Source of the DNA: Thermoproteus uzoniensis 768-20
GTDB taxonomy: Archaea > Thermoproteota > Thermoprotei > Thermoproteales > Thermoproteaceae
Assembly (NCBI RefSeq): GCF_000193375.1
Contig: NC_015315.1
Span: forward strand, 876,622 to 940,621
Reading direction: 5' to 3'
Length of the DNA: 64,000 nt
Below the pieces are notes generated by a model. It had not been told where the DNA came from and did not search any database. It saw nothing but the letters and a program-made list of their open reading frames with translations. Shown piece by piece: positions 9,609 to 56,187 of the stretch; positions within the stretch are counted from its first letter, which is position 1; the number at the start of each line of letters is the position of its first letter. The translations under genes and the position numbers were made by a program.

Positions 9609-11987
9609 TCAAGCCCTCCTCAGCCGGAGGGAGTTGAGGGTGACCGAGATGCTGCTGAGCGCCATGGCCAGGCCGGCGAGCTCCGGGCGGAGCACGACGT
9701 AGGGGTACAGGGCCCCCGCCGCTATGGGTATAAGCGCCGCGTTGTAGGCGAAGGCCCAGAAGATGTTGAACTTTATATTCCCATATATTTTGTCCACTAG
9801 GCCCATCAGCTCGGCGAGCTTCGACAGATCGCCCCGCACTAGGACGAAGTCGCCCGCCTCCTTCGCCACGTCTGTCCCGGTGCCCACTGCGATGCCCACG
9901 TCGGCGGCCGCCAGCGCCGGCGCGTCGTTGACCCCATCGCCGACGAAGGCCACCCGCCGCCCGGCCCTCCTCATCTCGTCCACTATCTTGGCCTTGCCCT
10001 CCGGGTCGACTCCGGCGTAGACTCTCGTTATCCCCAACGCCGAGGCCACTGCCCTGGCTGTCTCCTCGTGGTCGCCCGTCACTATCACCGGCTCGACGCC
10101 GCGGGCCTTGAGCTCGGCGACCGCCTCGGCCGACCCCGGCTTGACTTCGTCCCCCACCGCGAACATCCCCACGACGCGACCCTCGGCGACCACGTACGCG
10201 ACGGTGTAGCCCCTAGCCCTGAGCTCGGCCGCCCTAGCCGCTAAGTCGCCGTCCACAGCGGCGCCCATGCCCTCCACTATCTTCTCGTTGCCTACGGCCA
10301 CCGCGACGCCGTCCACGACGGCGTATACGCCGAGGCCGGGGAGGGAGTCGAAGGACTCAGGCCTCCTAGGCTCCACGCCGGCAGATCTGGCGTACTCCAC
10401 CAGCGCCGCCGCTATGGGGTGTTCCGACAAGAGCTCAGCGGAAGCGGCGAGCTCCAAAGCGCGCCGGTCGCCCAAGAACTCGACGACCTTCGGCCTCCCC
10501 CACGTCAAGGTCCCCGTCTTGTCGAACGCCACCACGTCGACTCTCCTCAAGGCCTCGAGGGCCTCCGGGTTCTTGACCAGAACCCCGCGTTCGGCCAGCC
10601 TGCCGACCCCCACCACTACAGCCATAGGCGTCGCAAGCCCGAGGGCGCAGGGACAGGCCACCACCAACACGGCGGCGGCGAACAGCAGTGCGGTCCCGAG
10701 AGGGGCGCCGCGCGCCAGCCAGACGGCGAAGGTCGCCGCGGCTACGGCCATAACCGCCCAGGTAAACACGCCGGCGATTCTGTCCACGAGGCTCTGGACG
10801 GGCAATCTGGCGTTCTGGGCGTGCCTCACCAGCTTGGCCATCTGGGCGATCAACGTATGCCTCCCGCTACGGGTCGTCCTGACGGCCAGACTTCCTCTGA
10901 CCAGCGTGGAGCCTGCGAGGACTAAGTCGCCGGGCTTCTTCTCGACGGGCATGGGCTCCCCCGTGAAGGCGGACTCGTCCACGTAGCCGCGGCCGTCGTC
11001 CACCACGCCGTCGACGGGTATCCTCTCGCCCTGCCTCACCAACACAATCTCGCCGGGCGCCACCTCGTCGGCGGGCTTCTCGACCTCGGCGCCTCCGGCG
11101 ACGACCCTAGCCCTCGGCGGCTGTAGCCCGAGGAGCCTCCTCACCGCCTCGCCTGTCCTAAGCCGCATTTTGGCCTCTAGATACCTCCCGGCCAACACAA
11201 ACGCTATCACGGCCGCCGAGGCCTCGAAATACGTCGGGAGGCCCGCCGCCGCGGCGTAGGCGCTGTATAGATACGTCGCTGAGGTGCCCAGGGCCACCAA
11301 GGTGTCCATGTTGGCCGTGGCGTTTCTGAACGCCCGGAATGCTCCCTTGAGGAACCGCCAGCCGGAGTAGAGCTGGACCGGCGTGGCCAGAGCCCACTGG
11401 AGCAACGGCGCCCACCAAGCCCCGAGGCGGACGAACATGAGCGCCATCAAGACGGCCGCGAGGGGCGCGGCCACGGCGAGCCGCCTCCCCAGCTCGGCCA
11501 GCTCCACGGCCGCCGCCCTCCTGTCCACGTCAGTCTCGACTGCGCCGGTCCGCACCTCGGCGACCTCGAACCCGGCGCCCTCCAGCCGCCTCTTGACTTC
11601 CTCCGCCGACACGTCGAGGGGGTTGTAGAGCACCGAGACGCCTCCGCCGACTACGTCTGGCCTCGCCTCGAAGACGCCCCAGCCCTCTGCGGCCTCGGCG
11701 GCCTTGTGGACCTCCTCGGGGCCTACCCCCCGCAACGCCAGATAGGCCTCCTCTGCGTACACGTCGTAGCCCGCCCTCCGGACCGCCCTAAGGAGATCCC
11801 CGTACCTCAGCCTCGCCGGGTCGACGAGCAACCTCGCCTCGTCGCTCGCGAGGGACGCGGAGGCGGCGACGACGCCGGGCACCGACGCGAGGGCTCTCTG
11901 GACAGTCAACGCGCAGGTGGCGCAGTGCATCCCCAATATCTTCAACACGGCCTCCCTGCCGCCCTCGATCCTCAGCTTGATGTCCAC
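9609..11987 (-). CDS. copA: Copper-exporting P1B-type ATPase
   Basis: A 792-residue membrane pump. In order: an N-terminal heavy-metal-associated domain with GMHCATC (about residue 19); a second HMA-like domain (about 80-145) whose CxxC is replaced by GVGPEE; transmembrane segments; the ion-binding CPCALGLATP (about 445); the phosphorylated Asp in DKTGTLTWG (about 488); the P1B-specific HP dipeptide in EHPIAAALVEYA (about 522); and GDGVNDAPALAAADVGIA (about 680). The CPC motif and overall layout indicate Cu+ (or Ag+) export. The GTG start at 11987 follows a TATA-like AATATATTTAA on the minus strand. It is divergent from the DsrE gene. Confidence 0.9.
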   Translation of the reverse strand: MDIKLRIEGGREAVLKILGMHCATCALTVQRALASVPGVVAASASLASDEARLLVDPARLRYGDLLRAVRRAGYDVYAEEAYLALRGVGPEEVHKAAEAAEGWGVFEARPDVVGGGVSVLYNPLDVSAEEVKRRLEGAGFEVAEVRTGAVETDVDRRAAAVELAELGRRLAVAAPLAAVLMALMFVRLGAWWAPLLQWALATPVQLYSGWRFLKGAFRAFRNATANMDTLVALGTSATYLYSAYAAAAGLPTYFEASAAVIAFVLAGRYLEAKMRLRTGEAVRRLLGLQPPRARVVAGGAEVEKPADEVAPGEIVLVRQGERIPVDGVVDDGRGYVDESAFTGEPMPVEKKPGDLVLAGSTLVRGSLAVRTTRSGRHTLIAQMAKLVRHAQNARLPVQSLVDRIAGVFTWAVMAVAAATFAVWLARGAPLGTALLFAAAVLVVACPCALGLATPMAVVVGVGRLAERGVLVKNPEALEALRRVDVVAFDKTGTLTWGRPKVVEFLGDRRALELAASAELLSEHPIAAALVEYARSAGVEPRRPESFDSLPGLGVYAVVDGVAVAVGNEKIVEGMGAAVDGDLAARAAELRARGYTVAYVVAEGRVVGMFAVGDEVKPGSAEAVAELKARGVEPVIVTGDHEETARAVASALGITRVYAGVDPEGKAKIVDEMRRAGRRVAFVGDGVNDAPALAAADVGIAVGTGTDVAKEAGDFVLVRGDLSKLAELMGLVDKIYGNIKFNIFWAFAYNAALIPIAAGALYPYVVLRPELAGLAMALSSISVTLNSLRLRRA

Positions 11988-32699: not shown

Positions 32700-33569
32700 A
32701 TGGACGTCGAGTATTTGGTGGCCGGCTCGTGGACTAGGGACGGCGCCGGCGTAAAGCTCTACCGGGTCTTCGGCGACCCCGTCCTGGCCGAGCTGACCGA
32801 CCCCTTCCTCCTGCTCGACCACTTCGGCTCCCGCTACCCCCACGAATATCTGGCGGGATTCCCGTGGCACCCCCACAGGGGGATCCAGACCATAACCTAC
32901 CTCCTCAAGGGCGAGGTACACCACGAGGACTCTGAGGGGAACAAGGGGGTGCTGGGCCCGGGAGACCTCCAGTGGATGAACGCCGGCTCGGGGATATTCC
33001 ACTCCGAGATGCCGAGGCCCTACAGACAAGACCCCGAGGTCTCGGGCTTCCAGCTCTGGGTCAATCTGCCGAGGAGGCTCAAGATGTCGGACCCCTTCTA
33101 CAAGAACCTCAAAAGCGGCTCGATACCCAAAGTAGTGACGGACAGGGGCGCCGTCGTGAGGCTGATATCGGGCAGAGTAAGGGAGCCCGGAACAGGCGCA
33201 GTCGAGGGCCCCGTGTCAGGCCTCCCGATCCCCGTGGTCTACATGGACGTGGAGATTCCCGAGGGGGTCGAGTTCCTCTACGAGGTGGAGGAGGGCTGGA
33301 GAACTCTCGTGTACAACTTCGGAGGCCGCGCGAGGATACAGGGGAGGGCCGTGGAGGACAGATCGCTCCTCGTGTTGTCCAGAGACGGCGGCGTGTTGAG
33401 GGCCAGAGGCCCCGCCCGCTTCTTGTTGCTCTCCGGCGTCCCCATCGGCGAGCCTATCGCGTGGCGGGGGCCCATAGTCATGAATACGTGGGAGGAGATT
33501 AGAGAAGCATTCCTGGAGCTGGAGAGGGGTACTTTCATGAGGAGGAGGGCCTCCGTCGAGGATATATGA
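32700..33569 (+). CDS. Pirin-family cupin protein
   Basis: A 289-residue bicupin. The N-terminal cupin carries the metal ligands in WHPHRGIQTITY and GEVHHEDS, and LGPGDLQWMNAGSGIFHSEM is the pirin signature. The C-terminal domain contains the second barrel (WRTLVYNFGG) and the C-terminal LSGVPIGEPIAWRGPIVMNT motif. Pirins bind Fe and act as quercetinases or as redox-sensing co-regulators; the function in archaea is unknown. TATA-like GTATATAAAG (32649-32658) lies inside the end of the preceding gene, about 45 bases before the start. Confidence 0.92.
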   Translation: MDVEYLVAGSWTRDGAGVKLYRVFGDPVLAELTDPFLLLDHFGSRYPHEYLAGFPWHPHRGIQTITYLLKGEVHHEDSEGNKGVLGPGDLQWMNAGSGIFHSEMPRPYRQDPEVSGFQLWVNLPRRLKMSDPFYKNLKSGSIPKVVTDRGAVVRLISGRVREPGTGAVEGPVSGLPIPVVYMDVEIPEGVEFLYEVEEGWRTLVYNFGGRARIQGRAVEDRSLLVLSRDGGVLRARGPARFLLLSGVPIGEPIAWRGPIVMNTWEEIREAFLELERGTFMRRRASVEDI

Positions 33570-33675: not shown

Positions 33676-34338
33676 CTATCCCTTTATGGTCGCTATGTAT
33701 CTCCCGTGCCACCAGTGGAATAGGACGGCGCCGTTGTAGCCGTTCACGCTGAGCATCTGCATGTCGCCGTCGGGCGTCATGAAGTGTATAGTGTAGTAGC
33801 CGGGGAATACGTGGACCTCCTCTATCTCGGAGCCCGGGAAGTGCGCCGCGAGCCACCGCTCCGCTATCTCGACAGCGGTCTTGTTGTCGATAAGCATAGG
33901 CAAGCCGCGCCACATCATCGACTGGGGCTCCGGATGGATCACGCCGTTGGGGAACACCAAGAGCTCCTCCAGCGGCTTCCCGCCGCGCCCCACTATCACG
34001 TAGTAGTTGTACTGGTACTTCTCGGCCTCCAGCACCTCCAAGCCGGTCGCGCTCTCCACGTACTGCACGAGGTTCGTGTCGTTGACGTAGCCGACGCCGA
34101 GCTGCCGGCCTCCCCACATGGGGCAACCGCCGACGTATCCGTACTGGTACACGTTCGCGTATACGCCCCCGCCGGTCGCCCATCCGCCCATCATGCCCGC
34201 CATCGGCGCCCACTGGTACGGCCCCGTAGATCCCCACCAGCCCTCTCTCCAGATCGTCCACCCGAACACTAGGGCGCCTGCCGCCGCGGCTGCCGCCGCA
34301 GCTAGCAGGGCTATTGCCAACATCTTTCTGTTTTCCAT
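33676..34338 (-). CDS. Exported, membrane-anchored Trp/Gly/Met-rich protein with PepSY-like C-terminus
   Basis: A 220-residue protein with an N-terminal hydrophobic signal anchor (LAIALLAAAAAAAAGALVFG), then a Trp/Gly/Met/Tyr-rich segment (APMAGMMGGW, GCPMWGG at about residues 71-77) and a C-terminal domain (about 125-220) with KTAVEIAERWLAAHFPGS and SVNGYNGAVLFHWWHGRYI, similar to PepSY-type domains of archaeal exported proteins. The Met and His residues could bind copper or another metal. It faces the YHS, membrane-HTH and CPMCGG genes that follow. No function is established. Confidence 0.65.
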   Translation of the reverse strand: MENRKMLAIALLAAAAAAAAGALVFGWTIWREGWWGSTGPYQWAPMAGMMGGWATGGGVYANVYQYGYVGGCPMWGGRQLGVGYVNDTNLVQYVESATGLEVLEAEKYQYNYYVIVGRGGKPLEELLVFPNGVIHPEPQSMMWRGLPMLIDNKTAVEIAERWLAAHFPGSEIEEVHVFPGYYTIHFMTPDGDMQMLSVNGYNGAVLFHWWHGRYIATIKG

Positions 34339-34566
34339 GCGTGCTTAGGAGCTCGGCGATAAATCCCCTTCGTGAAACCTTGCGCTATCCCGGTTTCGAA
34401 GGAGCGAAACGCGCTACTCGAAAACTGCATAGGCGTCGAGCCTCCGCGTATCGGCTAAAGTTGCGCCGGACTTTCTATAGGGGAGGCCGCTTGCGATTGC
34501 ACTAGCGCTGGGTCGCACATCGGCGCCTCGGGCGTAAAGGATAAATCGGGGAGGCGGGCGGAGGTC

Positions 34567-34740
34567 ATGGCCATAGATCCCGTGTGTGGGATGGAGGTCG
34601 ACCCAAAGACGGCGAAATATAAGACTATATATGGAGGCAAGATCTACTACTTCTGTTCCCAGGCGTGCAAGGAGGAGTTCGAGCGGAATCCCCAGCACTA
34701 TCTGACGCATGGCCCGCAGGGCATGCCCCACAGGCATTAA
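34567..34740 (+). CDS. YHS-domain metal-binding protein
   Basis: A 57-residue protein consisting of a single YHS domain: DPVCGMEVDP at the N-terminus, then YYFCSQACKEEFERNPQ with the paired cysteines typical of YHS/TRASH metal sites, and a His-containing tail (GMPHRH). Such domains bind Cu, Zn or similar ions and often accompany copper pumps and sensors. A TATA-like GGATAAATC lies about 25 bases upstream (34538-34546). The next gene, a membrane HTH protein, overlaps its 3' end by 32 bases. Confidence 0.8.
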   Translation: MAIDPVCGMEVDPKTAKYKTIYGGKIYYFCSQACKEEFERNPQHYLTHGPQGMPHRH

Positions 34741-35245
34741 CGGAGCGGCCCGCAGGCTCGGGGCGGCCACGGCTCGCGGGATCGCCGCAGTGCTGGCGGT
34801 TGCCCTAGCCGCCTCGCTCCTTCTCGACTACATGCACGTAAGGTACATGTGCCCCGACTGCCCCTACCCCACGCCCATGTCCGTCGTCTTCTTCGCCCTG
34901 CTCTCCACGTTGGGGCTTGCCGTTTACGCCGTTCTGAGGACCTCGTCGGGCGGGGCGAGAGCCGGCGGGGATCTGGAGATGTTGGCGTCGCTTCTCAGAG
35001 AGCCGGATCGCTCTATGTACCTCAAGCTTGTGGCCCACGGCGGCGAGGCCCCGGTCGCCCAGATAGCGAAGGAGCTGGGCCTCAACAAGGTCAGGGCGTG
35101 GAGAGCCGCCCAGAGGTTGCAGGAAAAGGGCTTGGTCGAGCTGGAAAAAACCAAGGGCAGGTTAGTGATGCGTCTGAGATCTAGCTATCTGCCTCCAGAG
35201 CCAAAGAACCAGCAGGACCAGAAGCGCTATAAACAGCAACATTAG
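34709..35245 (+). CDS. Membrane-bound winged-helix regulator
   Basis: A 178-residue protein with two N-terminal transmembrane helices (about residues 24-41 and 58-76) joined by a short outside loop containing MCPDCPYP, then a cytoplasmic winged helix (about 85-160: APVAQIAKELGLNKVRAWRA, then LQEKGLVELEKTKGRLVMRL). The CxxC in the outer loop could sense metal or redox state outside the cell. The ATG overlaps the YHS gene by 32 bases, which suggests co-expression. The last 84 bases overlap an opposing gene. A local regulator of the island is the natural inference. Confidence 0.65.
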   Translation: MARRACPTGINGAARRLGAATARGIAAVLAVALAASLLLDYMHVRYMCPDCPYPTPMSVVFFALLSTLGLAVYAVLRTSSGGARAGGDLEMLASLLREPDRSMYLKLVAHGGEAPVAQIAKELGLNKVRAWRAAQRLQEKGLVELEKTKGRLVMRLRSSYLPPEPKNQQDQKRYKQQH

Positions 35246-35395
35246 GAATAGGCCGAATATCCAGCCGAGGAACCCCCAAGGCCACATCCACCCGCCGCCC
35301 CACCAGCCTCCGCACATGGGGCACTGCCCGTACGACAGAGCCGCCAGGAGCGACAGCGCCGACAGCAACGCGGCGAATTTGGAAATCCGCGCCAT
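35162..35395 (-). CDS. Small exported CPMCGG protein with one membrane helix
   Basis: A 77-residue protein with a Sec-type signal peptide (ALLSALSLLAALSYG), a cysteine/tryptophan/glycine motif QCPMCGGWWGGGW directly after it, and one membrane helix (FGLFLMLLFIALLVLLVLW) ending in a His-tipped tail. On the minus strand a TATA-like GGTTTTAATCC (35414-35424) lies about 20-30 bases before the ATG, which supports it as a real gene despite an 84-base convergent overlap with the membrane HTH gene. Its CPMxGG motif is shared with the 220-residue protein at 33676. Confidence 0.65.
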   Translation of the reverse strand: MARISKFAALLSALSLLAALSYGQCPMCGGWWGGGWMWPWGFLGWIFGLFLMLLFIALLVLLVLWLWRQIARSQTHH

Positions 35396-35520
35396 GTGGG
35401 GACCTCCGCGCCGGGATTAAAACCTTCTCTGAAACCCGCCGCACGGACCTGCGCAACCTCGGTTACGCGAGCTGAAACCGGCGAGGGCCCAACGTTTTTA
35501 GAAGGCATTCGGGGGTATCC

Positions 35521-37524
35521 ATGGAGGAGTTGCGTCTGAGGTGTCTGCAGTCTTCCGGCTCCCCCTTCGTCTTGGAGGGGCTGAACAGCAAGATCCGTTG
35601 GTGGGGCTGGTGCCGGGAGGCCTTCGAGATCGCTCGGAGGGAGGACAAGCCGGTGTTGGTGGACGTGGGGGCCGTGTGGTGCCACTGGTGCCACGTGATG
35701 GACGCCACAACCTACAGCGACGACGCCGTCGCCGAGATGGTGAACAGGGAGTTCGTGGCAATCAAGGTCGATAGGGACGAGAGGCCAGACGTCGACAGGC
35801 GGTTGCAGGAGGCGGCGCAGCTGATCTCGGGCCAGTCGGGCTGGCCCCTCACTGTCTTCATGACCCCGGAGGGCCGCGTGATCTGGGCCGCCACGTATCT
35901 GCCCCCGAGGAGGCAGATGGGGCTTCCCGGCATGGACGAGGTGTTGGAGGCCGTGGTCAAGGCGTATAGGGAGAGGAGGGGCGAGATCGAGCGGCTCCAC
36001 GCAGACATAGCCGCGGAGCTCTCCAGCTGGCATTCGCCGAGCGCGGGGGAGCCCAGGAGGGATGCCCAGCTCGATGTCTTGGCCGCCCTCGCCGCGTCCT
36101 TCGACGAAGAGTTCGGCGGGTTCGGAGGGGCGCCTAAGTTCCCGCCCATAACCCAGCTGGAGCTCTTGTTGACGCGGCATTTCTACGACGGCGTTGGGAT
36201 ATACGGCAAGATGGCCGAGAGGACCTTGGACGCCATGGCGCTGGGAGGCGTCTACGACCAGCTTCTGGGCGGCTTCTTCAGATACTCCACGGACCGCCTC
36301 TGGCTTATACCCCACTACGAGAAGCTCCTCGTCGACAACGCAGAGCTTCTGGCCCTATACGCCAAGGCCTATAGGCACTTCGGGAAGAGGCTCTACAGAA
36401 AAGTCGCCGAGGGGATTGTCAAGTGGCTGGACGAGTTCATGAGGGCCCCCGGCGGCGGCTACTACGCGAGCCAGGACGCCGACGTGGAGGGGGAGGAGGG
36501 CGGGTACTACCGCTGGAGCTTGGAGGAGCTGAGGTCCATCCTCGGCGGGAGGTACGGCGTAGCCGCGAGGCACTTCGGCCTGGAGGACTTCGACTGGCCC
36601 GAGGGCAAGGCCACGCTTAGAGTCGCCGTGCCTATGGAGGGGCCGGAGGTTGAGGAGGTGTACCGGATACTGCTGGAGGCCAGACGGCGCCGGAAGCCGC
36701 CGTTCGTGGACAAGACTATATACGTCGGCTGGAGCTGCGCGATGGCCTACGCCGAGCTCCTCTCGGCCCGCCTCGCAGGCGTCGGGGACAGACGGCACGC
36801 CCTCGACACGCTCGAGCTCATCGCGAGGAGGTACGGCTCCGACGGCGCCCTGCCCCGCGGCTACCGGGGAGGCTCGCCCATCGGCGTCCCCACCGTGGAG
36901 GACTACGCCTACTGCGCCCTCGCGCTCGTGGAGGGCTTCTCCCAAACCGGCGACCTCCGGCTTGTCGAGGCCGCCGACAAGCTGGGCGGCGATCTGGCCT
37001 CCAAGTTCCTGGACGCCGGCGGCTTCAAGGACGTGGAGAAGGCAGACGACGTCGTCGGGATCCCCAACTACCCCTTCCTCGACACCCCCAACTTCTCCGG
37101 CAACTCTCTGGCGGCCATCTCCCTGGCCCTTCTCTCCGAGATTACGGGGCGGCGGGAGTACAGAGACGCGGCGTATGGGGCCGTGTCCGCCCTCTACGGC
37201 AAGATGGAGCGCGTGGGGCCGTCCGCATCCGGCATGTGGATAGCGCTGGACCTCCTCGCGGTGCCGCCGCCGAGGACTGTCGTGGTCGGAGACTCGCCGG
37301 AGCTGTGGAGGGCCGCCCTGGAGGCCTATCGGCCGTGGCACGTCGTCGTGCCTGTCGTGGAGGGCTGGCCTTTCCCCGAGTCCTCGATAAGGGCCATGGC
37401 GCGCGGGCCCAAGCCCGCGGCCTACGTCTGCGCTGGCACTGCCTGTAGCATGCCGATAAGGGATCCGGACGAGTTGCGGAGGGCCGTTGAGGCCTTCGCG
37501 AAGGACGCCTACGCCCTAAAGTAG
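35521..37524 (+). CDS. YyaL/SSP411-type thioredoxin-fold protein (DUF255)
   Basis: A 667-residue protein. The N-terminal thioredoxin-like domain (residues 1-165) carries WCHWCHVM (about 56-63) in DVGAVWCHWCHVMDATTYSD, followed by IKVDRDERPDVDR and GWPLTVFMTPEG. The rest is an alpha/alpha toroid of the six-hairpin glycosidase type (GGVYDQLLGGFFRYSTD, IPHYEKLLVDNAELL, YYASQDADVEGEEGGYYRW). The family (SPATA20 in animals) is widespread, but its activity is unresolved. It stands alone, with its start 125 bases from the divergent neighbour. Confidence 0.9.
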   Translation: MEELRLRCLQSSGSPFVLEGLNSKIRWWGWCREAFEIARREDKPVLVDVGAVWCHWCHVMDATTYSDDAVAEMVNREFVAIKVDRDERPDVDRRLQEAAQLISGQSGWPLTVFMTPEGRVIWAATYLPPRRQMGLPGMDEVLEAVVKAYRERRGEIERLHADIAAELSSWHSPSAGEPRRDAQLDVLAALAASFDEEFGGFGGAPKFPPITQLELLLTRHFYDGVGIYGKMAERTLDAMALGGVYDQLLGGFFRYSTDRLWLIPHYEKLLVDNAELLALYAKAYRHFGKRLYRKVAEGIVKWLDEFMRAPGGGYYASQDADVEGEEGGYYRWSLEELRSILGGRYGVAARHFGLEDFDWPEGKATLRVAVPMEGPEVEEVYRILLEARRRRKPPFVDKTIYVGWSCAMAYAELLSARLAGVGDRRHALDTLELIARRYGSDGALPRGYRGGSPIGVPTVEDYAYCALALVEGFSQTGDLRLVEAADKLGGDLASKFLDAGGFKDVEKADDVVGIPNYPFLDTPNFSGNSLAAISLALLSEITGRREYRDAAYGAVSALYGKMERVGPSASGMWIALDLLAVPPPRTVVVGDSPELWRAALEAYRPWHVVVPVVEGWPFPESSIRAMARGPKPAAYVCAGTACSMPIRDPDELRRAVEAFAKDAYALK

Positions 37525-38149: not shown

Positions 38150-38656
38150 ATGGAGGAAAATTTAAAAATACAGTTACACAGTAGATCAATGTCTATTCCT
38201 GGACTAGAGGCGGGCATACATGTATTTTTTGCTACTCTGGCGGCGCTGGACGCGACGGCGTTGCTCGCGATGGTATATCTCCGGGCCACTAAGTACATAA
38301 GGCCGTTGGCAGTCGCCCTAGCCGTCTTGGTATGGCTGAGCTGGATAGCAGTGGCGCCCGTCTACGTGATAGAGTACCCCGCCGATAGGAAGGTCATCCT
38401 GGCCAACAAGATGACCGCGGCGGCCCAAGAACTAGGTATGGAGATCAAGGAGCATATATTCTACACTGGCTTGATGCTAGCTACCTTTGTCCCCATCGCC
38501 GCGTACGGCGTGGATCCGGCGTCGGAGAGCGGCAGAAGACTGCTCTTATGGAGCCTTGTCGCTTTGCTCATCGGATACTTCGTGATGGACTTCCTCGGCG
38601 CCTGGATAGGGGTATCAGCTAAAATGGCTTGGGCCGCTAAGGCGGGCTATGGATAG
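38150..38656 (+). CDS. Integral membrane protein (four helices), unknown
   Basis: A 168-residue protein with four predicted helices (AGIHVFFATLAALDATALLA, PLAVALAVLVWLSWIAVAPV, FYTGLMLATFVPIAAYG, LLLWSLVALLIGYFVMDFLG). Histidines sit at the edge of helix 1 and before helix 3 (KEHIFYTG), which could bind heme, but no family is recognised. The start fits the TATA box described upstream. Its end overlaps the next gene by 8 bases, so the two membrane proteins are expected to be made together. Confidence 0.6.
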   Translation: MEENLKIQLHSRSMSIPGLEAGIHVFFATLAALDATALLAMVYLRATKYIRPLAVALAVLVWLSWIAVAPVYVIEYPADRKVILANKMTAAAQELGMEIKEHIFYTGLMLATFVPIAAYGVDPASESGRRLLLWSLVALLIGYFVMDFLGAWIGVSAKMAWAAKAGYG

Positions 38657-38963
38657 GGCCGGCCGCTTCACGGTAGCCTCGGCAGTTGGATACGTCGTCG
38701 CCGCCCTATTCAATGCGATTCTCGATGTCGTTAAGGAGTCCGTCAAGGCCGTAAACGCTTGGTTGACCACGACGTTCGGCCACCACTGGATAGGCCACGG
38801 CGTCTTGGTCGTCTTGTCGTTCGTAATAGCCACTGCGCTGGCCGCTCTAGTCTATCGAGGGACGCCCACCGACTCCACGATCAGGAAAATAACGATCGCG
38901 GTGTTGGCCACAACCATAGTAAGCGTATTGATCATAGCGACCTTTTACACAACTCACGGATAA
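38649..38963 (+). CDS. Small integral membrane protein, partner of the preceding gene
   Basis: A 104-residue protein with three predicted helices and a short amphipathic segment with HHWIGHG between the first two. The ATG overlaps the preceding gene by 8 bases. The cluster of three histidines near a membrane boundary is suggestive of a metal or heme site but no family is recognised. A T-rich tract (TTCATTTTTTGTTTTATTAG, 38971-38990) follows as a likely terminator. Confidence 0.6.
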   Translation: MDRAGRFTVASAVGYVVAALFNAILDVVKESVKAVNAWLTTTFGHHWIGHGVLVVLSFVIATALAALVYRGTPTDSTIRKITIAVLATTIVSVLIIATFYTTHG

Positions 38964-53779: not shown

Positions 53780-56187
53780 GGCTCGGCGAAAGGATCTTGG
53801 ACTACCTCACGACGACGTCGGCCCACAAGATAGGCTTGATGTATCTGGCGCTCAGCGTGGTTAACTTCATCATGGCGGGCCTCATGGCGCTTTTCATAAG
53901 GACGGTTATAGCGGCCACGCCCCCCGCGACCCCCACGTCGCTGGTGTCGCCGAACGACTACTACTGGTTCGTGTCCCTCCACGGGCTCGCCATGTTATTG
54001 CTGTTCGCGATGCAGGCGGTGGTCGGCATGGCCAACATAGCGGTGCCCAAGCTCATAGGCGCGCCCGATCTGTACTGGCCGAGGATAAACGCCCTCTCGT
54101 TCTGGCTACAAGTGCCGTCGTCCGTGCTCATGTGGTCCGCGCTGATGTACGCGTATCAAGGCGCGGGGACGGGGTGGACCCTCTACCCGCCTCTGTCGAC
54201 CGAGCTGAGGACTCTAGGCGTCGATTTGGTCCTCCTGGCGATAGTCATATCCGGCATATCGTCCACGCTGTCCGGCATAAACTTCATATTGACGATAACT
54301 AGGCTGAGGCGCCCCGACATCAAGATGTTGGACATGTCGCTGTTCGCCTGGAGCATATTGGCCATGTCTGTGTTGATGGTGGCCGCCCTGCCGCCGCTGG
54401 CGATGGGCGCAGTGATGCAGTTGCTCGAGAGGCATCTAGGCATGACGTTCTTCGCGCCCAACCCCGACAACCCGCTGGCGAGCGGCGACCCCAGGCTGTG
54501 GCAACACATCTTCTGGTTCTTCGGACATCCGGAGGTCTACATACTGGTGTTGCCGGCCATGGGCCTCGTGTCCGAGCTAGTCCAGAGGTTCGCCGGGCGT
54601 AGGGCGTACGGGTATACGGCTATAGCGGTCTCCTCGGTCGCCATAGCCTCGATAAGCTTCGCCGTGTGGGTACACCACATGTTCGTGGCCGTGGAGGACT
54701 GGATAACTAGAGTGGCCTTCGCGGTGGCGACAATGGCCGTGGCCATACCCTCGGGCGTCAAGGTGTTCAACTGGGTCGCCACGCTCTACGGAGCCCGTAT
54801 AAGGCTCAGGGCGCCCATGCTGTACGCCTTGTCCTTCATAGGCTTCTTCATTATCGGCGGAGTCACCGGCGTCTTCTTCCCCGTAATACCCGTGGACCTC
54901 GACCTCAACAACACCTACTTCGTCTTGGGCCACTTCCACTACATAGTCAACGCGATAGCCCTCGCCGTGCTCGGCGCCTTGCTCTACTACTTCCCGCACT
55001 TGACCGGGAGGTGGTACAACGAGGGCTTGGCCAAGGCCGCCTGGGCCCTCTGGGTCTTCGGAGGCGGCGTTACCTACAGCCTGATGCTGGCCGCAGGCGC
55101 CTTGGGCATGCCCAGGTGGTACGCCGCGGTCCCCACCCCGAGCTTGGAGCCCTACGCCTTAGGCATGACTGTGGGCAGCTGGATGATAGGAGCGGGCGCG
55201 GCTCTCTACCTCATAAACCTGCTCTGGAGCCTTAAATACGGCAGGCCCGTGAGGAACCCGGAAGATCCGTGGGGCGTCGCCAAGATCGGGCTACCCGACG
55301 TCGTGAAGCCCGCGGCCGAGCCGGAGCACGTCCACACGCCGTGGCCGGCCATAGTGGGCCTGGGCACCCTGCCGCTGGCGCTCGGCGTCCTCAACATACT
55401 CACGGCGGAGCCGACGAGCATAATGCGGGGCCTCACGTCGCCCTCGCCCGAGCTGGGGTGGGGACTGGTGGCCCTCTTCGCCGTGCTGGGGCTGGGCTGG
55501 TTCTGGTCCGACATGGTTAGGCGCGCCTTGGTGATACGCTCGCTCAACGGCGGGTACGTCCACTTCGAGTTGCCGAAGCCTCCCAGCGTCTGGAAGGACA
55601 TACACGCCACGATGGGCTGGGTGATACTGTCCGAGGCCGTGCTGTTCCTCACCCTCATATCGTCGGCCTACTACGCGCGCATAACGCTGTACCAAGAGTG
55701 GACAAGCGCCGCGCAGTCGGCCCCCGCCTTGCTCTCGCCGTTGGCTATAGCTATGTCGATCGCGTTGTGGAGCAGTAGCCTCACGGCGTCCATGGCCAGG
55801 AGAGAGTTCGTGGCAGGGCGCGTCGGGAGGTTCTACGCCTTTCTGGCCGTAACGATGGCGCTTGGCCTCTTCTTCGCGCTGTCCCAGTTCCTGCTCGAGT
55901 ACCCGCACCTAATGCACGAAGGGTTCGTCCCCACGGCCAGCATATTCTCTATGTACTTCTTCTCCATAGTGACGCTACACGGCTTCCACGTACTGATAGG
56001 GCTGACCTTCTGGGCCTTCGTGGCCTTGTTGACCCGCCTCGGCTACTGGACGCCTAAGAGGGCGGCCGGCGTCGAGGCCGCCGAGTACTACTGGCACTTC
56101 GTCGACGGCATATGGGTCCTCGTATTCCTCACGTTCTACGTAGGCGCAGTGAACAGCCTGCCTCCGCCCGCCGCGTTGCACGCATGA
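53776..56187 (+). CDS. Fused cytochrome c oxidase subunits I and III
   Basis: An 803-residue protein with about 19 helices. The subunit I part (1-560) has the heme-copper centre residues in FFGHPEVYILVLP (CuB histidine, cross-linked tyrosine and the conserved glutamate), WVHHMFVAVEDW (two CuB histidines), the K-channel lysine in PSGVKVFNW, and LGHFHYIVNAIAL (heme histidines), as in A-type oxidases. The subunit III part (about 615-803) includes TLHGFHVLIGLTFW and YYWHFVDGIWVLVFLTFY. ATG 53776 was chosen because it overlaps the CuA-subunit stop. It reduces O2 to water and pumps protons. Confidence 0.93.
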   Translation: MRLGERILDYLTTTSAHKIGLMYLALSVVNFIMAGLMALFIRTVIAATPPATPTSLVSPNDYYWFVSLHGLAMLLLFAMQAVVGMANIAVPKLIGAPDLYWPRINALSFWLQVPSSVLMWSALMYAYQGAGTGWTLYPPLSTELRTLGVDLVLLAIVISGISSTLSGINFILTITRLRRPDIKMLDMSLFAWSILAMSVLMVAALPPLAMGAVMQLLERHLGMTFFAPNPDNPLASGDPRLWQHIFWFFGHPEVYILVLPAMGLVSELVQRFAGRRAYGYTAIAVSSVAIASISFAVWVHHMFVAVEDWITRVAFAVATMAVAIPSGVKVFNWVATLYGARIRLRAPMLYALSFIGFFIIGGVTGVFFPVIPVDLDLNNTYFVLGHFHYIVNAIALAVLGALLYYFPHLTGRWYNEGLAKAAWALWVFGGGVTYSLMLAAGALGMPRWYAAVPTPSLEPYALGMTVGSWMIGAGAALYLINLLWSLKYGRPVRNPEDPWGVAKIGLPDVVKPAAEPEHVHTPWPAIVGLGTLPLALGVLNILTAEPTSIMRGLTSPSPELGWGLVALFAVLGLGWFWSDMVRRALVIRSLNGGYVHFELPKPPSVWKDIHATMGWVILSEAVLFLTLISSAYYARITLYQEWTSAAQSAPALLSPLAIAMSIALWSSSLTASMARREFVAGRVGRFYAFLAVTMALGLFFALSQFLLEYPHLMHEGFVPTASIFSMYFFSIVTLHGFHVLIGLTFWAFVALLTRLGYWTPKRAAGVEAAEYYWHFVDGIWVLVFLTFYVGAVNSLPPPAALHA

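Follow-up and report, generated by a model that had tools for sequence, protein, structure and literature searches.

Two exported-type proteins, a YHS-domain protein and a predicted membrane regulator are encoded side by side in Thermoproteus uzoniensis 768-20, which raises the question of whether these genes form a functional unit and, if so, what that unit would sense. The window analysed here is the whole stretch of 64,000 nucleotides in which the genes lie, corresponding to positions 876622-940621 of the genome (G000, a single contig of 1,936,063 bases).

The four genes and their products

The open reading frames of the window and their translations place all four genes, termed here P1, YHS, mHTH and P4, as a cluster, which is listed below with its promoter elements and the copper ATPase gene of the window.

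33676-34338, minus strand: P1, 220 aa; N-terminal hydrophobic segment, Gly/Trp/Met-rich stretch with GCPMWGG, then two PepSY-like domains (predicted) with HPEPQSMMW
34567-34740, plus strand: YHS-domain protein, 57 aa; PF04945, 72.5 bits (cut-off 30.3)
34709-35245, plus strand: mHTH, 178 aa; two predicted TM helices around an outer loop, HVRYMCPDCPYPTPM, then a winged HTH
35162-35395, minus strand: P4, 77 aa; signal-like N-terminus, QCPMCGGWWGGGW, CPMCGG, Trp/Gly-rich, one hydrophobic/TM segment (by eye)
34359-34378, minus strand: TATA-abutting element of the P1 promoter, GTTTCACGAAGGGGATTTAT; matrix rank 2 in 64 kb
34393-34410, no strand: inverted repeat GTTTCG-N6-CGAAAC, upstream of P1 and of the divergent YHS gene
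35416-35435, minus strand: TATA-abutting element of the P4 promoter, GTTTCAGAGAAGGTTTTAAT; matrix rank 1 in 64 kb
35462-35478, no strand: degenerate inverted repeat GTTACG-N5-TGAAAC, upstream of P4; two mismatches, spacer of 5
9609-11987, minus strand: copA, copper-type P1B ATPase (TIGR01511 match), 22 kb from the cluster in the window

A preliminary description of this DNA had placed a YHS gene and a membrane-HTH gene between two exported-type genes with a common motif, and positions and motifs (GCPMWGG in P1, CPMCGG in P4) agree with it; its account of P1 and P4 as opposing genes was mistaken, as both lie on the minus strand and flank the plus-strand YHS and mHTH genes. The latter two share 32 bp, and the convergent mHTH and P4 genes share 84 bp. 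These genes are real, because open orthologues exist in other genomes: P1 at 44-55% identity in 7, P4 at 40-53% identity in 7, and mHTH at 35-48% identity in 6 members of the window's family. The cluster is preceded by a pirin gene (32700-33569), and a similar-looking protein (by eye) is encoded near mHTH in another locus (L088, 6724-7623). On the other side, the plus strand at 38150-38963 encodes two small hydrophobic proteins that matched no family above cut-off; G+C there (47-58%) is lower than in the surroundings.

Neither P1 nor P4 matched a Pfam or NCBIfam family above cut-off, and a P1 profile searched against PDB sequences gave no match up to E 10. The predicted P1 model has two helix-plus-sheet units in residues 91-220 (block-mean pLDDT 84-97); residues 13-82, which include the CPM motif, fall below a pLDDT of 50 and are not reliably modelled. 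The best structural matches of the model are the PepSY proteins YpeB (Z 7.7, rmsd 2.3, 72 residues) and CD1622 (Z 6.0), with unrelated proteins next at Z ~5, and a Z below 8 can reflect a common arrangement. UipA matched weakly (Foldseek rank 9, E 0.044). The PepSY profile PF03413 found no match in the window's P1 and at best 18.1-18.3 bits, under the cut-off of 24, in the P1 homologues tested. On the strength of the model, P1 is predicted to be a tandem PepSY-like protein, either exported or N-terminally anchored. All 8 P1 rows of the family alignment (A1) keep the Cys-Pro of the CPM motif, which varies in the wider P1 alignment (A3). Invariant in A3 are HPEP, S and MMW of HPEPxSMMW, together with M195, H208 and WHG, and the family alignment adds H185 and M193; by their conservation, these residues are candidate metal ligands. 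For P4, predicted to be a small exported or membrane protein, the family alignment has 8 rows, and a member was found at each of the ten loci fetched from a sister family.

Conserved linkage and copper-related neighbours

Our survey covered 45 genomes of the order, from which eight P1 regions of the window's family (f1; L069-L076) were fetched. P1 homologues occur in 9 of the 45 genomes, all of them in f1, and mHTH adjoins P1 in seven of the nine. More specifically, six of the eight other P1-bearing family genomes (G027, G028, G029, G032, G041 and G042) have a close mHTH orthologue that is divergent from P1, and in each of them P4 lies within 1.7 kb; in G043, the regulator is absent and the end of P1 is overlapped by P4. 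The neighbourhood is rich in copper genes: copA lies 0.3-4.2 kb from P1 in 7/8 family regions, YHS within 6.3 kb in 6/8, and DUF411 in 5/8 (Pfam-confirmed in L071 only). P1, YHS and copA share one strand in L069, as do mHTH, YHS and copA in L077, which has no P1 match, and mHTH is also found without P1 in G039. The set in G036 is damaged, with copA in three blocks, YHS in two, a stop in P1 and mHTH missing, which looks like joint decay, although sequencing or assembly errors are an alternative. In one frame of that genome (L075, 8319-8826), a P4-like start passes into P1-like sequence at the common CPM motif and the intervening mHTH is gone, as if a deletion had run through the motif.

The linkage extends beyond the family. 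The sister family (f3) comprises 25 genomes, and ten of its mHTH loci were fetched at length, with others that have matches (e.g., G003, G006, G019 and G020) left out. At all ten, mHTH adjoins an exported protein of one family, whose frame is shorter or split in L090 and L092. This partner is a cupredoxin: the two members tested matched Copper-bind (PF00127) at 29.2 and 32.8 bits (cut-off 21.2), and C-TYPG-H-x4-M was found in the eight sequences inspected. A P4-like frame is likewise present in 10/10 loci, nine at E 5e-12 or better and L092 at only 0.001, by a profile that was built partly from seven of the same ten loci; the frames of L088 and L092 are without CPxC. Since the ten f3 loci keep both the regulator and P4 beside a cupredoxin, these two genes appear to be constant, with the exported partner switching between cupredoxin and P1.

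An alignment search of named genomes yielded 6 loci, two of them in the window's family. In a Desulfurococcales MAG (L094), mHTH, P1 and P4 occur together; in three Nitrososphaeria/Thaumarchaeota MAG loci, P1 is present and no such regulator was seen beside it. Across the phylum, P1 matches were found in 43 of 398 genomes and 21 of 163 genera. A P1 match was present in 34 non-family genomes, and 33 regions were fetched, with G171 (fragments) and the secondary matches of G357 and G385 left out. A match to the mHTH profile with two hydrophobic segments and enough length to include an HTH adjoins P1 in 16 of these 33 distant regions, representing 8 genera and 5 families; fifteen pairs are divergent (one 816 bp apart) and one is on the same strand. 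Pfam searches on 4 of the 16 regulators gave a named HTH above cut-off in L129, L137 and L154, and only DUF7343 in L149. The other mHTH-profile matches in distant regions are three-TM proteins and two short two-TM proteins, all adjacent. DUF411 accompanies P1 in 9/33 distant regions, ArsR in 4/33 and copA in 3/33, and none of the sought neighbours was found in five (L130, L131, L133, L135 and L158). A regulator beside P1 is absent from 17/33 distant regions and from 2/9 family genomes. In many distant genomes, a three-TM Met/Trp-rich protein is encoded directly after P1 (L137, 5597-5983, DUF6114 above cut-off; L153, 6600-6989), and an ArsR/SmtB-type regulator follows some P1 genes (L112, 2350-2736, NF033788 91.1 bits with cut-off 55; L150; L155; L161).

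Among the findings that would have counted against the preliminary description was a lack of conserved association elsewhere; the opposite was seen, as P1, mHTH and P4 travel together across families. The four genes could in principle have come to adjoin by chance, without common function, and gene order in related family genomes is indeed not independent. However, the P1-regulator pair recurs in 5 other families, the sister-family regulator keeps P4 beside a different exported partner, and P1 and P4 have a common promoter element (see below); we therefore regard chance adjacency as extremely improbable.

The ATPase encoded in the window matches TIGR01511 at 555.9 bits (cut-off 397), also passes the cadmium model TIGR01512 (384.4 versus 313.5), and carries CPC and CATC motifs. 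In relatives, the YHS gene adjoins copA. The product of the window's YHS gene, which has a single YHS domain as the preliminary description stated, scores 19.7 with Arc_trans_TRASH, below the cut-off of 27, and is probably cytoplasmic, because no signal-like segment was seen (by eye); by sequence, it is a candidate CopM-like copper chaperone. The earlier claim of a copper-type system outside the membrane is supported, with one correction: copA, DUF411 and the cupredoxins supply the copper company, but the YHS protein goes with CopA and is probably inside the cell. A search for PF08394 (TRASH) next to copA in the window's genome gave as best match a 79-aa frame at the cut-off, far from copA, and TRASH matches are weak across the window's family apart from G037 (E 3.7e-8). 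mHTH may stand in for CopR in f1. A simple replacement is weakened, because f3 has both: a strong TRASH match is divergent from copA in 12 sister-family genomes. The best reading is that mHTH serves where CopR usually does.

The regulator loop and shared promoter elements

mHTH, as the preliminary description proposed, is a two-helix membrane regulator with a loop, by prediction. Its HTH matches lie just above cut-off (TrmB 28.6 versus 25.6; MarR_2 28.6 versus 27), no TRASH match was found in it, and two hydrophobic segments surround the loop. The predicted model places helices 10-47 and 56-94 around the loop, followed by the winged HTH (mean pLDDT 66, moderate confidence, three sequences). 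In 33 regulators, Met, His and Cys together make up 28.7% of the predicted outer loops versus 2.8% of the residues after the second segment, with loop limits taken from crude hydropathy and the L090 mHTH left out of both alignment and loop count. Met is present in 33/33 loops, His in 27/33 (absent from 6) and Cys in 14/33 (absent from 19); besides the window's own, examples are AYYHCMGMMCGMMMYYP from the sister family and WQHNNIMSEVMRNIAGMPMHESMMFW from a distant genome. By prediction, mHTH is a one-component transmembrane transcription regulator with a Met/His/Cys loop outside. With Met in all 33 loops and no Cys in 19 of them, the composition is more in keeping with Cu(I)/Ag(I) than with a disulfide switch.

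The loop might instead sense another metal (Ag, Hg or Cd) or a redox/thiol signal, the copper genes being incidental. In support of this, the motif noted in the preliminary description is Cys-rich in the window, thioredoxin-like genes lie near (e.g., a DUF255 protein at 35521), and the ATPase passes the cut-off of the Cd family model. Set against it are the many Cys-free, uniformly Met-containing loops and the cupredoxin partners in the sister family. We judge such a signal improbable, and redox-only sensing is rated low because of the 19 loops that lack Cys.

Two elements recur in the P1 and P4 promoters of the family: GTTTCR-N6-YGAAAC-like repeats and, closer to the gene, GTTTCR-N4-RGG-N-WTWW at the TATA box. 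The exact repeat (GTTTCR-N5-7-YGAAAC) has one site in the window's genome, at P1. Over 19 family genomes it totals 11 sites, against 16 for a reversed control; the cluster holds six of the 11 (G000, G027, G029, G032, G036 and G042), and the other five lie elsewhere. With up to 2 mismatches, 11 matches fall in 1,876 bp of cluster promoters versus 14 in the remaining 160,130 bp, two of the 14 overlapping annotated mHTH starts; the promoter limits for this count were set by us. A genome-wide regulon based on the repeat with 2 mismatches was rejected, as the reversed control gave similar counts. Among sister-family loci, the repeat lies near the cupredoxin in 2/10 at 1 mismatch, and its density ratio at 3 mismatches is ~2 (11 loci including L094), a weak enrichment.

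For the TATA-abutting element, a weight matrix was built from ten examples in six other genomes; searched on both strands of the 64 kb, it ranked the window's P4 (24.9 bits) and P1 (22.5 bits) promoters first and second, with the next site at 16.4 bits; the training elements were picked by eye from promoters after the motif had been noticed in the window, so that the ranking is independent and the choice of elements is not. When each genome was left out in turn, a cluster promoter ranked first in 6/6 genomes, and the second rank also lay in the cluster in 5/6 (not in L070). The matrix also marks a site before DUF411 in L072. As an exact pattern, the element is confined in the 1.94-Mb genome to the promoters of P1 and P4, with one site each, and it precedes copA in G029 and G036; at the window's own copA promoter, no inverted repeat and no element above the matrix ranks was seen. 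Among the eight genomes with a P1-copA cluster (G036 included), 11/15 matches lie in the cluster and the four off-cluster matches (G027, G029, G036 and G041) fall within reading frames; the remaining 11 family genomes hold 3 matches (G031, G037 and G038, all without P1). The total over 19 genomes is 18 versus 16 for the reversed control. Hence the places of the matches, not their number, are special, because totals are no higher than (repeat) or close to (TATA-abutting pattern) the reversed controls. Its linkage to these promoters suggests that mHTH binds the elements.

These genes might alternatively form a copper supply unit that, instead of giving protection when copper is in excess, would be induced when copper is scarce or growth is aerobic and would hand the metal to cuproproteins outside the cytoplasm (heme-copper oxidase, cupredoxins). 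A match to the heme-copper oxidase subunit I family PF00115, to which nitric oxide reductases also belong, is present in 6 of the 7 family genomes (>=90% complete) whose P1 is intact versus 2 of 8 in which P1 is absent or broken; as these genomes are related, the counts are not independent and the co-occurrence is suggestive only, and we rejected it as the main explanation. There are also exceptions, with P1 but no oxidase match in G042, and an oxidase but no P1 in G037 and G044. A supply role would further accord with the cupredoxin partner in the sister family and with the support of heme-copper oxidase by a bacterial PepSY_TM protein, as indicated in part of one report (PMC13038864). Nevertheless, the genes lie with the exporter gene copA and with DUF411, and a TATA-abutting element precedes copA in two genomes; on balance, we consider supply unlikely. 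The window itself encodes a match to this oxidase family (53827-55185, plus strand; PF00115, E 3.4e-125), 18 kb from the cluster.

A proposed copper homeostasis unit and its relation to known systems

We favour, as the probable explanation, a copper homeostasis unit in which a one-component, outward-facing regulator senses Cu(I)/Ag(I) outside the cytoplasm and governs exported proteins that bind copper. The computed observations behind it are gene content, conserved linkage, loop composition, the PepSY-like model and shared promoter elements; copper as the metal is inferred from neighbour genes and ligand-type residues. The two TM helices of mHTH would expose its short Met/His/Cys loop on the outer side of the membrane, with the winged HTH on the inner side. 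The loop would change on meeting extracytoplasmic Cu(I), which P1 may present to it, and the winged HTH would then act at the GTTTCA-N6-TGAAAC repeats and at the GTTTCR half-sites next to the TATA boxes of P1 and P4; in some relatives, such half-sites would also serve copA and probably DUF411. P1 (tandem PepSY-like) and P4 (CPxC, Trp/Gly-rich) would bind or buffer copper outside. P1 might be a buffer, or else a co-sensor that touches the mHTH loop, as part of one report describes for DbfQ with its kinase (PMC12714742), and the YHS protein would serve CopA inside the cell.

More broadly, such units could represent a class of outward-reading archaeal copper sensors in at least 7 families, a proposal whose merits we find evenly balanced: two-TM one-component regulators with a Met/His/Cys loop, a tandem PepSY-like co-sensor or buffer (in f3, a cupredoxin) and P4, together the archaeal one-component equivalent of the copper kinases that sense the periplasm in bacteria and of PepSY-kinase modules. 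If true, a single small protein would connect an outer loop of metal ligands with a DNA-binding domain, the promoter element being defined and the set of targets compact, and copper measurement before cell entry in archaea would become directly testable in cultured Pyrobaculum and Thermoproteus. It would also provide a functional lead for P1, with its matches in 43 of the 398 phylum genomes, and for P4, two proteins that the family libraries used here leave unnamed.

Each component has precedents, in archaeal cop clusters, in membrane regulators and in PepSY-sensor modules; their combination, which the preliminary description called undescribed, was likewise not found in a limited check of open-licence literature. 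The archaeal cop cluster (CopA, the CopM/TRASH chaperone and CopR/CopT; PMC7830388, in part) resembles the present one in having a copper ATPase, a small YHS/TRASH protein and a regulator gene. In CopR/CopT, however, an excerpt of the same source has metal sensed by a TRASH domain fused to an HTH, whereas here the regulator is a predicted membrane winged HTH with an outer loop, and two exported proteins are additional. Transmembrane transcription regulators (TTRs), which combine a DNA-binding domain and TM helices in one protein, as predicted for mHTH, are common in Thermoproteota according to part of PMC10269533; the available main text of that source is without the words "copper" or "metal", whereas the loop described here is Met/His/Cys-rich and linked to copper genes. 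The PepSY-sensor modules DbfQRS (PMC12714742) and UipA with UipRS (PMC8963506), as excerpts of these sources present them, have an exported PepSY protein encoded beside a membrane sensor, an arrangement that the present cluster would share if P1 is PepSY-like as predicted, and UipA is described there as a metal-binding tandem PepSY protein. Their sensor is a two-component kinase, however, whereas the cluster described here has a one-component regulator and no histidine kinase or response regulator among its genes. Finally, the sister-family partner resembles copper-tolerance cupredoxins such as CopI, which a partial account gives as exported cupredoxins among copper genes; the window's P1 is no cupredoxin, but it occupies the same genetic place.
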